Assembly: GCF_004342005.1 (NCBI RefSeq)
Contig: NZ_SMBX01000010.1
Coordinates: 41,913-105,912, forward strand
Origin: Paracandidimonas soli
GTDB taxonomy: Bacteria > Pseudomonadota > Gammaproteobacteria > Burkholderiales > Burkholderiaceae_B
Length of the DNA stretch: 64,000 nt
Direction of reading: 5' to 3'
The number at the start of each line of letters is the position of its first letter. Positions within the stretch are counted from its first letter, which is position 1. A program made the position numbers and the translations under genes. The notes under the pieces are model-generated. The model searched no databases. It saw only the letters and a list, made by a program, of their open reading frames with translations, and had not been told where the DNA came from. Positions 42,619-49,321 of this stretch are shown here, in pieces.

Positions 42619-43707
42619 TCAAGCTACTAGCGCCTCCTTGTCGGGAGGCGTTTCTTTTTCCGATTCCGGGATTGACCAAAAGTTGACCGTACCGGCATGG
42701 GCGGCGATGTGGCTCGGCGCCAGGTGTGCGTACTTCTGCACCATTTCGATCGTCTCCCAGCCGCCGAGGTCCTTGAGTACCATCAGCGGAGTGCTGGTGC
42801 CGGTCATGATGCCCTGGACATGCCAGCTCGCCCATGTGTGACGCAGGTCGTGCCAGTGAAAATCCGTGATGCCGACAGCTTCGCATGCTCTTGCGAACAC
42901 GCGCCGGTCATGCTGGCCGATGCGCCTTCCGTCGCCGTTGTCCCGCGTGAATACCCATTTTGCGGGGCGTTTTAACCGGCGCTCGAACACCGCATAGGCA
43001 TCATCGTTGAGCGGAACAGCGCGACCGCGCTTGGATTTTGCTGTATCGTGCGTCACCCATGTGTGTCGCTGGGCAAGCATGACTTGGCCAGGAGCTAGGC
43101 TGAACTGCTCCGTTTCGCGCATGCCGGTCATTACGGCAACAATCACCGCATCGCGCATCCAGGGAACGGTTATGGCGTCGACCATGGCCATAATTCGATG
43201 GGGTGGTTCCCATCGTATGCGGGCAACCGGCTCATCGAACCTGGGCAGCTTCGGTGCTCGATCCAGCCATTCCCACTCGACGCAGAGATTGAGCAGGCGC
43301 CGAATCGTGGCGATGTACTTATTTTTCGTGCCGTTGGCCAGCGTGTTGCACGGCTTACCTTTGATCACGCGGTGCGTAGGCAGGCCGTCGAGGATTTCGT
43401 TCGCTGTTAAAGAGCAAAGTTCGCGACCGGCGAATAGAGACCGCCAATACGCTACGTGCAGCTGCTTCGTTGCATAGTCACGTTGTCCTGCGCACAGCTT
43501 GAGGAAGCGAACGGCAGCCTCCTCGAAAATATAGTTGGGCTTATCGCCCAACATGCCTTGACGCCAGTACTGTGCTCTTAGGCGGTCGTGATATTCCTGG
43601 GCCTGGACTTTGTCTTTCGTCCGAGCAGAGCCTCTAACTCTTTCACCGCTTGGCGTGTAGAAGTCGACGTGATAGACGCCGGTTTTTTTATCTTTGCGGA
43701 TTGGCAT
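42619..43707 (-). CDS. int: Tyrosine recombinase integrase
   Basis: 362 residues. An N-terminal arm-binding part and a SAM-like domain (~55-155) precede the catalytic domain with Arg197 (GMRETE), Lys225 (TAKSKRGR), His286-x-x-Arg289 (HDLRH), Trp317 (GGWETIE) and the nucleophile Tyr326 (VQKYAHL). It catalyses integration and excision at the adjacent tRNA-Thr. Its start lies inside the excisionase gene (130-nt overlap), so the two are translationally linked. Confidence 0.96.
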   Translation of the reverse strand: MPIRKDKKTGVYHVDFYTPSGERVRGSARTKDKVQAQEYHDRLRAQYWRQGMLGDKPNYIFEEAAVRFLKLCAGQRDYATKQLHVAYWRSLFAGRELCSLTANEILDGLPTHRVIKGKPCNTLANGTKNKYIATIRRLLNLCVEWEWLDRAPKLPRFDEPVARIRWEPPHRIMAMVDAITVPWMRDAVIVAVMTGMRETEQFSLAPGQVMLAQRHTWVTHDTAKSKRGRAVPLNDDAYAVFERRLKRPAKWVFTRDNGDGRRIGQHDRRVFARACEAVGITDFHWHDLRHTWASWHVQGIMTGTSTPLMVLKDLGGWETIEMVQKYAHLAPSHIAAHAGTVNFWSIPESEKETPPDKEALVA

Positions 43708-44516: not shown

Positions 44517-44617
44517 AATGCCCCCGATGCATGTAGGATCCCTGCGATAAGAGCGGGGATGGTGATTACGAAAATGCAGATAAGTGCAGCCCATACCGTT
44601 CGTTTTTTGAGCTTCAT
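44513..44617 (-). CDS. 34-residue single-span membrane peptide
   Basis: MKLKKRTVWAALICIFVI... is a basic start followed by a ~20-residue hydrophobic helix and GILHASGAL. ATG 44617 overlaps the ParB-like stop (ATGA) and its own stop overlaps the next ATG in the same way. Coupled translation supports it as real. Function is unknown. Confidence 0.62.
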   Translation of the reverse strand: MKLKKRTVWAALICIFVITIPALIAGILHASGAL

Positions 44618-46386
44618 GCCGCCGCCTCGATCTCGTTGTTTTGTTCTGTGGCCGTGGGTTCGGTCGCTCTGGTGGCGGGAGTGGGTACTAGGAAATCGTC
44701 GCGGGATTGGCCGCTTTCTTCTGCGGCTACAATCCAGCGCGGCGGCTTGCCACGGCCCGTCCAGGTATCTCCGGTTTCCGGGTGTTGGTAGCGGACGGCA
44801 GGTAGGTTTGTTTTTTTGGCTGCCGGTTTTTTTACAGGTGCTTTCTTGGCGGGTGCGGGCTGCATCTTGCGTTTGATGGCCTTGGGGTCAATCCCGTACC
44901 GCTCGCACGCCAGTAGCAGGTCGGTCGGCTTTGAGCCGTCAACCGAGTATTGGCTGACGTAGGTTTCCGGAGCGAGGGCGCAACTGAGCATCAACAGTGC
45001 GAGCTCGGCGGGTTCCATGCCGTCGATCTGCTGCTGCGCGGTATCGACTTCTCTGTTCGGCCATCCCCATAAATCGGCAACCGCAGGGCGCCAATCATGA
45101 GCGAGGTCGCGGTACATTTTTTGAGCGATCAGGCGCATTTCATCGACGGAAAGTGTCGTGCCGCCTTCGAGTTTGGTGCGTGCTGCCTGGTGTATCTGTG
45201 CAAGCAGTTGGCGGCGGTACTCGCGTTCCGCCTTGGCTTTTTTCATCTTCTCCCTCTCGGAAGCGGAAGAGGACGAGCTGGCGCGGCTGATCGTGATGCC
45301 TTTCGCTTTGAGCGCTTCCTTTGCCTTGTCTTCCGGGATGGCCTCGATCAGGTCGCCCTTGTGGGGGCATTCAATCAGGACGGTTTCCGGCATGTCTTTG
45401 CCCAGGACCTTCTTTAGGCTTTTATCGCTACCCATCCACCAGGGGGAGTCATTGGTTGGGATGTAGCCTTTCATGTCGCCGTATTGGTAGGGGCGGATCT
45501 TCTGCGCTTCTTTGCCGGTAATCACTTTTTTTCCGGACTCGACGGCAGCGGCGCGGATCCTGTCTCGATGCAATGTGACCTTTTGGTTGTAGCAAGTCGG
45601 GTCCGTGCATACGTCTGCACGGCTCACGTCGCTGAATAGATCCGGGTTCGCCCCGGTACGCTTCGGGCAGCTGGAACATGCGCCAGCTGCGGGGTGCAGT
45701 GTTTCGTCTGATGGCTTGAACGGGGCCTGGTCCAGGCGAGTCATGTAGTTGTCCTGGACATGGCGGGCGGCCTCGCGGTAGGACATGGGGCCGCTGTTTC
45801 CCCAACGGCCTTGCGTGACTTCTTTTAGTGCTTGCTCCTGCAGTGCCGGCACAGGAATGCGCGCCAGCAGCAGGGCGACGGAAGGACTGATTTTGTCTTC
45901 GTAAAATGCGGTGCGGGCTTTCGGCTGCAGGGCGCATAGCTTCAGACGTGCGTAGATAAAGGCGCGGCTTTTGCCAAGCTTTGCCGCTACCTGGTCAACG
46001 GAGTAATCGGGATCGTCTTTGTGCTGCGCCAGCAAGCTCTCGTAGCTTTCGGCTTCCTCCAGAGGATGAATGTCTTCACGTTGCAGGTTTTCGATGATCT
46101 GCATTTCGAGCATCTGCAGGTCGTCGACTGCGATGATGTTCGCGGGTATGTGCTCTAGTCCTGCGGCCACGCTGGCGCGCCAGCGACGCTCGCCGGCAAT
46201 GATTTCGTACCATACCGTTCCATCAGGGTCTGTGCGTTCGCGCGCCAGAATAGGCTGCAGCACGCCGTGCGTTTTGATACTTTCCTTTAGCTCGTCCAGG
46301 CTCGCCTGATTGAATGTTTTGCGAGGATTGGTTTTTGATGGCCGGGTACTGGCTGTCAGGATCAATGGGTAGTTGCTTTCGCTCAT
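44614..46386 (-). CDS. ParB-like protein with a C-terminal H-NS-type DNA-binding motif
   Basis: 590 residues. Residues ~15-110 are a ParB/Srx nuclease-like domain (NPRKTFNQASLDELKESIKTHGVLQPI, IIAGERRWRASVAAG), followed by a ParB HTH (~125-165: SVDQVAAKLGKSRAFIYARLKLC). A four-Cys cluster (CSSCPKR...VCTDPTC) may bind zinc. After a Lys/Ala/Pro linker, residues ~527-566 read YQHPETGDTWTGRGKPPRW, the H-NS C-terminal DNA-binding motif. It is not paired with a ParA and the phage integrates, so a role in replication, gene silencing or host modulation is more likely than plasmid partition. Confidence 0.87.
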   Translation of the reverse strand: MSESNYPLILTASTRPSKTNPRKTFNQASLDELKESIKTHGVLQPILARERTDPDGTVWYEIIAGERRWRASVAAGLEHIPANIIAVDDLQMLEMQIIENLQREDIHPLEEAESYESLLAQHKDDPDYSVDQVAAKLGKSRAFIYARLKLCALQPKARTAFYEDKISPSVALLLARIPVPALQEQALKEVTQGRWGNSGPMSYREAARHVQDNYMTRLDQAPFKPSDETLHPAAGACSSCPKRTGANPDLFSDVSRADVCTDPTCYNQKVTLHRDRIRAAAVESGKKVITGKEAQKIRPYQYGDMKGYIPTNDSPWWMGSDKSLKKVLGKDMPETVLIECPHKGDLIEAIPEDKAKEALKAKGITISRASSSSSASEREKMKKAKAEREYRRQLLAQIHQAARTKLEGGTTLSVDEMRLIAQKMYRDLAHDWRPAVADLWGWPNREVDTAQQQIDGMEPAELALLMLSCALAPETYVSQYSVDGSKPTDLLLACERYGIDPKAIKRKMQPAPAKKAPVKKPAAKKTNLPAVRYQHPETGDTWTGRGKPPRWIVAAEESGQSRDDFLVPTPATRATEPTATEQNNEIEAAA

Positions 46387-46388
46387 GG

Positions 46389-47699
46389 TTATCTCCGATG
46401 GGTTTTTGATGTGGCGGCCCAGCAGCTGGGGCCGGTGTGCTTGAGTGCAGCCTCGTATGAGGCAAGGGATTCGGAGCGGTCAATGCCTTGCGTCTCGTGT
46501 TGACGGAGGCGGTGCAAATATCGGCTGCGCAGATACCGACCGGCGGATATATGTGTTGGCCAGACCACGTAGCCGAGGAAGGGGATGCCGGCGTTGGCCG
46601 GCGCCAGGCGTATCTTCTTGGGGTGCACGACAAGGCCCTCGGCGCTCAGGCGCTCGATGATCTTTTCCTTGGCCTCCAGCAGCTCGTCGCGTGACTTGGC
46701 GAGGAACACCATGTCGTCGACGTAACGGATATAGCAGCGCGCGCGTAGGTCCTGCTTTACCCAGTGATCTGTGTCGTTCAGGTAGATATTGGCGAACCAT
46801 TGCGACAGCAGGCCGCCGATGGGCATGCCTTTGGCTTGGGTCAGTCGGTACGGGCTGTCTGGTGCAAACAGTTCGTCGAACAGGCCGTCTGTTTCGAACG
46901 ACCTGATGAGAGAACTCAGCAGCTGCCTGATGTCGTGGTCGCCGATGTATCGCAGCGCACGTGGCAGTAGCTGTTCATGCTGGACGGAATAAAAATACTT
47001 CGATATATCCAGCTGCAGCGCATACTGCGCATGCTCGCGCCTGGCGAACTGGGCCAGGCGGTGGACGGCGGCATGCGTGCCTCGGCCTGGAATGTTGCCG
47101 TAGTTATCGTGGATGAATCTCGGCTGCCAGATCGGCAGCATGTACCGATACAACATCCAATGCACGATGCGGTCCTTCATTGGGGCATCGACAACATGCC
47201 GGAATTTCTTCTCCTGCACGGTGAATGTCTTGTATGGACCGAAGGTGTACCGTCGTTCCCTCAGCCTCTGCTGGATTGACACCAGGTAGCGGAGCGCGTC
47301 GTCATCGAACCGCTGGATTCTCGGATGACTGGCCTTGCCTCTGCGGGCGTAGAGCCAGCACTGGTAGAGGTTTTCCAGGCTGGTGATCCGGATGAAATCA
47401 GATTGCTGCCTGACTTCCGTTGCGGCGCCCGTAGGCCCCGCAACGGTTGCCAGATTGGCCGATGGCCGTGCTTTCGGGGATGGTTCCCCGGGAGAACTTC
47501 GACCAAGAATAAGCTTCCCGTGGGCATGCCCAGCGTCCAAGCGTGAAATTATTGGGTCAGCGGAACCCGACGTTGTCGTACTCGTTGTCGGGCCAGTCGT
47601 TGTCGAGGTTGAAGACGCCGGCGTTCTCGTGCGAGTTGAAGCAGCCCCCGCGTATGAGCGCGTTGCCAGACCTCCAAGAAGTTCCCCCTTGTGGGTCAT
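46389..47699 (-). CDS. Diversity-generating retroelement reverse transcriptase
   Basis: 436 codons from ATG 47699, which has AGGAGG 7 nt upstream and overlaps the Avd-fusion stop (ATGA). Reverse transcriptase homology begins near residue 100 (FIRITSLENLYQCWLYARRGK). RT motifs: catalytic Asp231 (LDISKYFYSV), PIGGLLSQ (~294-300, the GxxxSQ form typical of DGR reverse transcriptases in place of QGxxSP) and YVDDM (326-329), then the thumb (FLGYVVWPTH). It copies the template repeat RNA with errors opposite adenine. The first ~95 residues run in frame through the template repeat and are Ser/Thr-rich, so the mature N-terminus is uncertain; the enzyme may start further down at a non-ATG codon. Confidence 0.93.
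   Translation of the reverse strand: MTHKGELLGGLATRSYAGAASTRTRTPASSTSTTTGPTTSTTTSGSADPIISRLDAGHAHGKLILGRSSPGEPSPKARPSANLATVAGPTGAATEVRQQSDFIRITSLENLYQCWLYARRGKASHPRIQRFDDDALRYLVSIQQRLRERRYTFGPYKTFTVQEKKFRHVVDAPMKDRIVHWMLYRYMLPIWQPRFIHDNYGNIPGRGTHAAVHRLAQFARREHAQYALQLDISKYFYSVQHEQLLPRALRYIGDHDIRQLLSSLIRSFETDGLFDELFAPDSPYRLTQAKGMPIGGLLSQWFANIYLNDTDHWVKQDLRARCYIRYVDDMVFLAKSRDELLEAKEKIIERLSAEGLVVHPKKIRLAPANAGIPFLGYVVWPTHISAGRYLRSRYLHRLRQHETQGIDRSESLASYEAALKHTGPSCWAATSKTHRR
47558..47672 (-). repeat. DGR template repeat (TR)
   Basis: 115 nt matching the variable repeat at 48624-48738. On the minus strand it carries many AAC and GAC codons (e.g. GVFNLDNDWPDNEYDNVGFR when read in the target frame). 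Fifteen positions differ from the variable repeat and all fifteen are A in the TR; no other base differs. It lies inside the 5' part of the reverse transcriptase frame. Confidence 0.96.
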
Positions 47700-48541
47700 T
47701 GTGCAGCCTCCTGGGCGTTGATGAGACCGCCCACGACTTGCCCAAGCCCCACGGATAAGGTGACTGCGCTTTCGAAGGAAATTTGCAGATTGTTTATCTT
47801 TGAGGCCTGCGTCAGGTGGTACTTGATGACATCGACATCGGCAGAGATATCGAGCAGAAGGGTGTACTTGTTGCGAGCCTTGCCGTAGGCAAAGACGTTG
47901 CGAATGATGCGGGCCAGGCAGGCGCGCAGGTTTTCGCCATATACGGCGCGGACGTCCCGTGGCATGCGGATGATCTTGTGCATCAGCAGCGTTTCGAGAT
48001 CCAGCGCTTTGGTTTTCAGATCGAATTCCGACCCGCTTGGATTGGCCAGCAGCTTCTTCGTGGCGGCGACGTTGACGGAGTTGATCTGCTGCAGGTCCAG
48101 GATGACCTGGTGCACGATGTCGTCCGTGACTGCGCCCAGCACCGATGCATTGCCTTCATTCTTCTTTGATCCGTAGGTCTGATATCCGTCCTTCTGGTTG
48201 CCGAGGGCGACAACGTACGGGATATCGAATTCGTTCATGATCGACCACAGGCGGCGCTCGGCTCGGCCTGCGGGGAACCCTATGCGCAGATGCGGGGCGC
48301 TTGTCGTTCCGACCAGCTTGAGCTTGTATTTTTTCAGTACATGCAAGGCGTATGCCGTCTTGTCGAAACCATGCAGAAAGGTGCCGGCCTGGATGAGTAC
48401 CAGGTGGCCGGGGTGTTGCTGCGCGATCTTGGCCGCGAGCTCGGCTAGCGGTTCGGCCTGGCCCAGGGCGACATCAATGCCGCGATACGCCGAAATGGCG
48501 TAGGTGGATTGCTCTTGTCCGGTTGGCTGTTTTGCTTTCAT
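47696..48541 (-). CDS. MutS-like domain fused to Avd (DGR accessory protein)
   Basis: 281 residues. The C-terminal ~100 residues (180-276: LETLLMHKIIRMPRDVRAVYGENLRACLARIIRNVFAYGKAR...GQVVGGLINAQ) follow the Avd/bAvd four-helix pattern, the accessory factor that forms a pentamer and binds DGR reverse transcriptase and TR RNA. Residues ~45-115 (LVLIQAGTFLHGFDKTAYALHVLKKYKLKLVG...GFPAGRAERRLWSIMNEFDIPYVVALG) resemble MutS domain I (the GxFYExYxxDA...GFP pattern). MutS-like (MSL) genes are known DGR accessories. Here the two functions appear on one chain. Family assignments are by eye. Confidence 0.82.
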   Translation of the reverse strand: MKAKQPTGQEQSTYAISAYRGIDVALGQAEPLAELAAKIAQQHPGHLVLIQAGTFLHGFDKTAYALHVLKKYKLKLVGTTSAPHLRIGFPAGRAERRLWSIMNEFDIPYVVALGNQKDGYQTYGSKKNEGNASVLGAVTDDIVHQVILDLQQINSVNVAATKKLLANPSGSEFDLKTKALDLETLLMHKIIRMPRDVRAVYGENLRACLARIIRNVFAYGKARNKYTLLLDISADVDVIKYHLTQASKINNLQISFESAVTLSVGLGQVVGGLINAQEAAQ

Positions 48542-48570
48542 TGGGGTGCCTGCTGTATTAGGAGGGGGAG

Positions 48571-48595
48571 GGGACGCCGCTGCGCGGCGCCCGGG
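48571..48595 (-). other. GC-rich hairpin just after the variable repeat (DGR target hairpin)
   Basis: On the minus strand GGG-CGCCGC-GCA-GCGGCG-T-CCC forms a 9-bp stem with one bulged T, 29 nt beyond the 3' end of the variable repeat and 13 nt after the target gene stop. A hairpin or cruciform at this place is required for efficient retrohoming in the Bordetella phage DGR. Confidence 0.72.
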
Positions 48596-48607
48596 ACCAG
48601 TGACCCG

Positions 48608-49321
48608 TTACCTGGGCTTGGTGCAGCGGAACCCGACGTTGGCGCACTCGAGGTCGGGCCAGACGACGACGAGGCAGAAGACGCCGGCGTACTCGAGCGA
48701 GTAGAAGCAGCCCCCGCGTATGAGCGCGCCGCCAGACCCGTCTGCGCCAGCCTTCGGGTACCAGCCCATGCCTTTTTCCAGACGTGGATATGGTGCTGTT
48801 GCGATGGATGGGGATCCGGCGATGAATGGCTTGTTGACCAGGCCGGTCTTGGGGTCGCCCTCGATGTCGGCCACGACCCACGAGAACAGGTGGCCGGCAA
48901 CGTCATAGATCCGCTCGCCGGACGGCAGGACGAACCAGCGGCGCTCGTCGGGATCGCTGGGCTCGTAGTCGTTGGCCTGAGCAGCGAGCACGCTACCTTT
49001 GCGCAGGCCCTGGCGCAGGCTGCCTTCGCCTACGGCTCCGCCAGTCCAGTTTTCGGAGGTTTCGGCGATGAGCTGGGCGATGGCCAGGTACTGCAGGTTT
49101 GTGATCAGCTCGAAACCGGCCTGGTGGCAAGCTTCGCGGCTGTCGTAGAAATTGATGCGGGTCGTCGGCTTTTCGGTGGCCGAGATATAGGCTGCTCCGG
49201 TGTCATCCTTGCAGGCCAAGTACCGCGACACCAGGAAGGGCGCAACAATGACTTCGCTTCCGCGTAAGGTTGTTTCGGGGATCTCGACGAAAAGCGAGGT
49301 GTCGGTCGTTGTGGTTTGCAT
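48608..49321 (-). CDS. DGR target: variable protein with FGE/C-type-lectin fold
   Basis: 237 residues, no signal peptide. The middle and end follow the formylglycine-generating-enzyme-like C-lectin pattern (SREACHQAGFELITNLQYLAIAQLI, GERIYDVAGHLFSWV, LIRGGCFYS...NVGFRCTK). The last ~40 residues are the variable repeat: 11 of the positions encoded by Asn/Asp/His/Tyr in the template differ here. The solvent-exposed loop of such folds is a ligand-binding site. It sits in the early operon between ssb and the Avd fusion, not with the tail genes. AGGA precedes the ATG. Confidence 0.93.
   Translation of the reverse strand: MQTTTTDTSLFVEIPETTLRGSEVIVAPFLVSRYLACKDDTGAAYISATEKPTTRINFYDSREACHQAGFELITNLQYLAIAQLIAETSENWTGGAVGEGSLRQGLRKGSVLAAQANDYEPSDPDERRWFVLPSGERIYDVAGHLFSWVVADIEGDPKTGLVNKPFIAGSPSIATAPYPRLEKGMGWYPKAGADGSGGALIRGGCFYSLEYAGVFCLVVVWPDLECANVGFRCTKPR
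48624..48738 (-). repeat. DGR variable repeat (VR)
   Basis: 115 nt at the 3' end of the target gene, residues ~195-233. Identical to the TR except at 15 TR adenines: two-base changes in four AAC codons (to GGC, TGC, GTC, CTC) and single changes in seven others. The 3' end AACGTCGGGTTCCGCTG is unchanged and probably contains the initiation-of-mutagenic-homing site. Confidence 0.96.

Follow-up and report, generated by a model that had tools for sequence, protein, structure and literature searches.

The window analysed here, a 64,000-nucleotide stretch of a Paracandidimonas soli contig, carries a prophage with an integrase gene at 42619-43707 and terminase, portal, protease and capsid genes running rightward from 56 kb. 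A diversity-generating retroelement (DGR) is found in the leftward early block of this prophage, together with a regulator, SSB, a ParB/H-NS protein and the integrase, and away from the tail genes. Its gene order on the minus strand is a variable protein (VP) with the variable repeat (VR) at its 3′ end, an accessory protein, the template repeat (TR) and the reverse transcriptase (RT), and every part expected of a DGR is present and intact (Table 1). Directly downstream of the RT, at 44614-46386 on the same strand, lies a gene for a ParB-type protein with an H-NS C-terminal DNA-binding domain.

Table 1. Positions of the retroelement features within the window
Feature	Position	Strand	Evidence or remark
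DGR reverse transcriptase ORF, 436 aa	46389..47699	-	RVT_1; PHROG 1423, E 1.5e-97
Conserved structured RNA: TR 3′ end and spacer (Sp), inside RT ORF	47409..47572	-	covariance model match, 171.6 bits
Template repeat (TR)	47558..47672	-	alignment; nested in RT ORF
ATGA, overlap of accessory stop and RT start	47696..47699	-	in all 55 distinct relatives
Accessory protein, 281 aa	47696..48541	-	MutS domain I fused to Avd four-helix domain
Hairpin after VR, GGGCGCCGC - GCA - GCGGCGTCC (target-site hairpin/cruciform)	48572..48592	-	
Four degenerate heptamers, AGGTAAC GGGTCAC TGGTCCC GGGCGCC	48586..48613	-	just after VR, overlapping VP stop codon
Variable protein (VP), 237 aa, target gene	48608..49321	-	ORF; VR in last 43 codons
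Variable repeat (VR)	48624..48738	-	repeat search and alignment

The RT translation displays the YVDD and IGGLLSQ motifs, the second of which has the IGxxxSQ form that marks DGR-clade reverse transcriptases, and its best match among PDB structures is bRT of the BPP-1 DGR RNP (8ub7, E 1.5e-41). The accessory protein matches bAvd/Avd profiles; Foldseek relates its N-terminal part to MutS and its C-terminal part to Avd (4dwl/8ub7), and the Pfam MutS_I domain was found in 7 of 14 homologues, so that an Avd domain and MutS-I are both present in this DGR accessory protein. The VR spans about codons 195-233 of the 237 in VP and thus occupies the 3′ end of a C-lectin/FGE-like gene, the usual position in a DGR. 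VP itself matches the PHROG sulfatase-modifying-factor family, with Pfam FGE-sulfatase found in three of six homologues, while its best fold match, a weak one from a low-confidence model, is the DGR variable protein TaqVP; VP would function as the diversified protein of the element. Among named phages and plasmids, no close relatives of the accessory protein and no close DNA relatives of the locus were found. PADLOC returned no match for the accessory protein or VP and only generic RT matches for the RT, on which ground classification as a defence system was rejected.

Adenine-directed differences between the repeats

Ungapped recomputation of the TR/VR alignment on the coding strand (offset 1066) gave 115 aligned bases with 15 mismatches, and the template base is adenine at all 15 (8 A>T, 5 A>G and 2 A>C). 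The initial annotation had reported the same 115 bases and 15 mismatches, all at template adenines, at these coordinates, together with 11 altered codons, which we identify as N198G, N207Y, H209L, N211Y, N216C, D218V, N219V, D220V, N224L, Y226C and D227A. Adenine accounts for 24 of the 115 template bases, giving a hypergeometric probability of 5.5e-13 for mismatches confined to A by chance, and the 91 non-A template positions are all identical between the repeats. An A-only signature is a textbook property of DGRs, and the 15/15 result is by itself unsurprising, being ordinary for any such element. The repeat search also recovered this pair, with a length of 121 nt and 86% identity; the whole genome holds one TR and one VR, and a search for a second VR elsewhere in it found none. 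An A-tolerant extension adds one A mismatch at each edge (117 nt with 17 mismatches, computed on locus L032, the sequence of which is the same as the window). Because the mismatch at the 3′ edge, TGA in the TR and TGC in the VR, is present in nearly all relatives and so looks like a fixed difference at the TR/VR boundary, 15 is the better count.

Relatives were collected by an RT-core scan (69 viral loci) and an accessory scan (26 viral loci). Two IMG/VR loci, L004 and L032, are the window sequence and were not counted as independent evidence of conservation, L032 standing for the window among 55 loci with distinct spacer sequences. In this DNA, divergence from the nearest independent relative is ~27%. 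The A-tolerant repeat search revealed A-directed TR/VR pairs in most relatives, with one to three VRs each. The 92 such pairs lying beside a DGR RT contain 1482 mismatches at template adenines and 62 elsewhere, a ratio that is biased upward by the A-tolerant search from which the pairs came. Comparison of one VR against another is a better test than this ratio, and three loci (L040, L041 and L073) are identical in the TR, the 900 bases after it, the flanks and the first VR. At the second VR, L040 departs from L041 and L073 at eight sites, all eight at template adenines, and six other close VR comparisons place every difference at such a position (15/15, 15/15, 23/23, 18/18, 15/15 and 18/18). 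Variation in near-identical contigs thus falls in the VR at TR adenines only while the TR stays constant, which is the outcome the initial annotation had predicted for related strains and which indicates DGR activity in these near-identical relatives.

The proposal that the two repeats arose by ordinary duplication, their differences being due to chance or otherwise biased mutation unrelated to the RT, accounts for two similar copies 1 kb apart; we regard it as refuted, with a negligible residual probability, by the A-only pattern and its 5.5e-13 chance, by the same pattern in the relatives' pairs next to a DGR RT, and by the match of the RT to bRT. The reading of the repeats as products of adenine-directed mutagenic retrohoming is well supported, and the window is best taken as a record of past retrohoming recent enough that none of the 91 non-A positions has diverged since. 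The earlier statement that the element has been active "since the last copy event" is loosely worded, since the copying itself makes the A changes. A decayed element, one that diversified VP in the past and no longer does so in this prophage, is quite unlikely. Such decay would suit a dataset holding a single genome of the genus, in which activity is seen only in relatives, but all ORFs and RT motifs are intact, the non-A positions of the repeats are identical even though the nearest independent relative is so divergent, and those relatives do show activity.

Several related phages (L033, L053, L059, L077 and L088) carry two or three DGR targets each, with VPs that differ at the N-terminus, and a 'DYFVLDLTHD' module is common to some of these VPs.

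The template and spacer within the RT reading frame

The RT start lies upstream of the TR, such that the RT ORF runs through the TR and the spacer into the RT core, which begins near 47402 (SDF) and is preceded by ~99 codons of leader, TR and spacer. This nesting was absent from the initial annotation and emerged in the present analysis. The TR occupies about codons 9-47 of the 436 in the RT ORF, in a frame that differs from the one used in VP. Across the 55 distinct loci the ATGA is always about 25 bases before the TR, and in 54 of them a long accessory ORF ends at its TGA. In the spacers of these related loci, the stop counts of which are not independent events, the RT frame has 0 stops and the two remaining frames have 59 and 18. 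RT-core peptides served to find the loci, and hence the spacer was not selected for openness, whereas openness of the TR is partly selected by the start-search procedure. Dinucleotide shuffling leaves a frame open in about 31% of spacers.

The spacer nevertheless varies as RNA rather than as protein, with variation at the three codon positions of 0.28/0.30/0.33 as opposed to 0.26/0.19/0.52 in the RT core. A covariance model was built from 42 sequences, including the L032 copy of the window sequence. At the 32 predicted pairs, 95.5% of cells can pair, against 37-43% in slid controls; 20 of the 32 show double changes, and covariation is 0.392 as compared with below 0.1 when slid. The covariation, the lack of codon periodicity and the open frame together mark the spacer as a folded RNA, in keeping with a DGR template RNA, that at the same time stays free of stops in one frame. 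The GACC at the TR 3′ end is linked to the spacer motif TTGGTCGA by invariant pairs, which a primer-positioning role of the spacer would predict; covariation gives no proof of these particular pairs, since they do not vary. Searching Rfam with the spacer yielded chance-level matches only and no known RNA family, and the spacer RNA model found no credible match in other DGR clades. Since codon periodicity is absent, we rejected the N-terminal extension as a conserved protein domain. Leader and spacer are unconserved as amino acids, and the 99-codon extension, which would be translated as part of the RT, may have no function of its own.

Among 46 fused RTs, 18 have no ATG, GTG or TTG between the TR and the RT core, and the remainder have no start codon at a conserved place in this interval. 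Some contigs have additional genes (N6_N4_Mtase, PAPS_reduct, D12 methyltransferase, Dam, H-NS-like and unknowns) inserted between spacer and RT. All of them continue the frame of the TR-spacer leader, mostly without an ATG of their own: GTA, TTA or another non-start codon mostly stands where the ATG of the insert is expected, and in some of them translation could begin at a GTG located a few codons upstream. Methyltransferase and PAPS-reductase-like inserts occur at L007:6810-7820, L086:4658-6001, L087:4760-6001, L088:5060-6124 and L090:4862-5641, and in L071 an H-NS-like gene is fused to the leader.

The frame is not constrained in all DGRs. Spacer stops, counted with the RT frame first, are 28/17/27 in a Vibrio clade, 62/64/76 in an Aeromonas clade and 25/34/57 in the BPP-1 clade, but 0/33/56 in 49 distinct loci of a clade resembling Burkholderia phage Magia, where the TR is inside the RT ORF in 69 of 71 cases. 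The nested layout is therefore a property of particular clades, and the BPP-1, Vibrio and Aeromonas clades led us to reject read-through of the TR in the RT frame as a general DGR trait.

These comparisons bear on whether the RT is instead translated from a weak non-ATG start of its own after the spacer, the open frame being a by-product of high GC and of history. Several observations would agree with this: the spacer lacks codon periodicity, in some relatives translation could start at a GTG just ahead of the RT core or insert, the separate RTs of L007-like loci begin with their own ATG at SDF, and the RT frame of BPP-1 likewise extends far upstream without a stop even though brt starts at an ATG of its own. 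We nonetheless judge it unlikely, given the stop-free RT frame of all 55 spacers, the shuffling result, the lack of a conserved start codon, the in-frame joining of inserts from different families without an ATG, and the Vibrio and Aeromonas clades, which show no such frame bias. We favour translation of the RT through its template: because the accessory stop and RT start overlap and the RT frame continues through TR and spacer, a single RNA very likely serves as RT mRNA and as the template for mutagenesis.

Heptamers and hairpin following the variable repeat

The hairpin after the VR has a 9-bp stem and can be drawn as a hairpin or cruciform of the kind found at DGR target sites, with a 3-nt GCA loop here in place of GRNA. 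A hairpin after the VR has been described for BPP-1 (PMC3240598). In the clade studied here each VR is followed by three to five degenerate heptamers (NGGTCNC) and then by the hairpin. Over 88 VRs of relatives, identity in the sequence after the VR is 0.61 at lag 7 and 0.59 at lag 14, compared with 0.14-0.30 at other lags, and at least three heptamer units are present in 95% of real but 0.25% of shuffled sequences. The heptamers were looked for and found to be absent in BPP-1 relatives, lag-7 identity is weaker in the Vibrio (0.37) and Aeromonas (0.41) clades, and the tract after the VR in the Magia clade has a period of 8 (0.39). A literature search that covered few subscription papers found no published report of the 7-nt tract, which probably marks the target site together with the hairpin; we infer this function for the heptamers. 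Tandem periodicity of 7 or 8 nt just after the VR was also observed in loci of other clades (L193-L218, L299-L378 and L219-L298).

A proposed mechanism and comparison with known systems

Taken together, the sequence comparisons lead us to propose, with a probability of roughly 0.85, that this is an intact temperate-phage DGR in which one RNA would be both RT mRNA and template. A single leftward transcript would carry VP, the MutS-I/Avd accessory gene, TR, spacer and RT. By analogy with BPP-1, a complex of RT and accessory protein would take the folded TR-spacer RNA as template, making cDNA with errors opposite A, and this cDNA would replace the VR in VP at a site marked by the hairpin on its 3′ side and, probably, by the heptamers. 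Ribosomes making the RT would have to pass through the template, and the supply of RT would in this way be coupled to the template in cis. That the locus is a real DGR is the firmer part of this proposal, translation through the template being its conditional part. The unusual features are the putatively coding template, the genes captured in frame, the MutS-I/Avd fusion and the heptamer tract.

The BPP-1 DGR (mtd, avd, TR, brt) shares with this element the order VP-accessory-TR-RT, A-directed change, a VR at the 3′ end of a C-lectin-type gene, a structured spacer after the TR and the hairpin after the VR. It differs in that brt is provided with a separate ATG downstream of the spacer, that Avd lacks a MutS domain, that no 7-nt tract follows the VR, and that it adjoins tail genes, whereas the DGR described here adjoins SSB, ParB and integrase genes. 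The BPP-1 type of cassette, with a non-coding TR and an RT start after the spacer, is thus not the type found here, and in 12 of 39 BPP-1 relatives the spacer is interrupted by stops in the RT frame. The native BPP-1 operon has no clear ribosome binding site before brt (PMC12875486, 2026).

A TR overlapping the RT ORF was tabulated earlier, from annotation only, as DiGReF structural group 3 (PMC3521204), in a paper that also infers separate transcription of RT and TR RNAs. The present element fits this group in that its TR overlaps an end of the RT ORF; here, conservation of the frame among relatives was examined. DGRs with an MSL (MutS-like) accessory protein (PF01624) are named in PMC10053308 and, compared by name and domain only, share MutS domain I with the accessory protein described here, a single polypeptide joining MutS-I to Avd.

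The clade of Burkholderia phage Magia (L122) is similar in its TR nested in the RT ORF, its lack of RT-frame spacer stops, its early-region position near the integrase and its lectin-fold target. It differs in that the RT is only about a third identical, the TR starts about 94 nt after the ATG, the spacer RNA model finds no match and the Avd is plain.

To our knowledge, DGRs are the fastest targeted protein diversifiers known, and they are being adapted as tools. We consider the chances evenly balanced for a broader proposal in which the DGR guide RNA would itself be coding in both this and the Magia-like lineage, tying enzyme to template in cis, the leader would capture methyltransferase and PAPS-reductase-like genes in frame, and the 7-nt tract would be an unnoticed target-site element recurring in several clades. 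If the template is also an RT reading frame, translation and templating would compete for one RNA, which would suggest a simple control of mutation rate and recruitment of the RT in cis, and it would show that an RNA constrained by covariance can stay stop-free in one frame. The 7-nt tract would extend, in a direct and testable way, the target-site rules by which DGR retargeting is limited.

In BPP-1 itself (L101:1756-3060) the brt frame is open through the spacer and TR and into avd, and relatives break it. L122 (Magia) and L219-L298 form a second, distant DGR clade with a nested TR.
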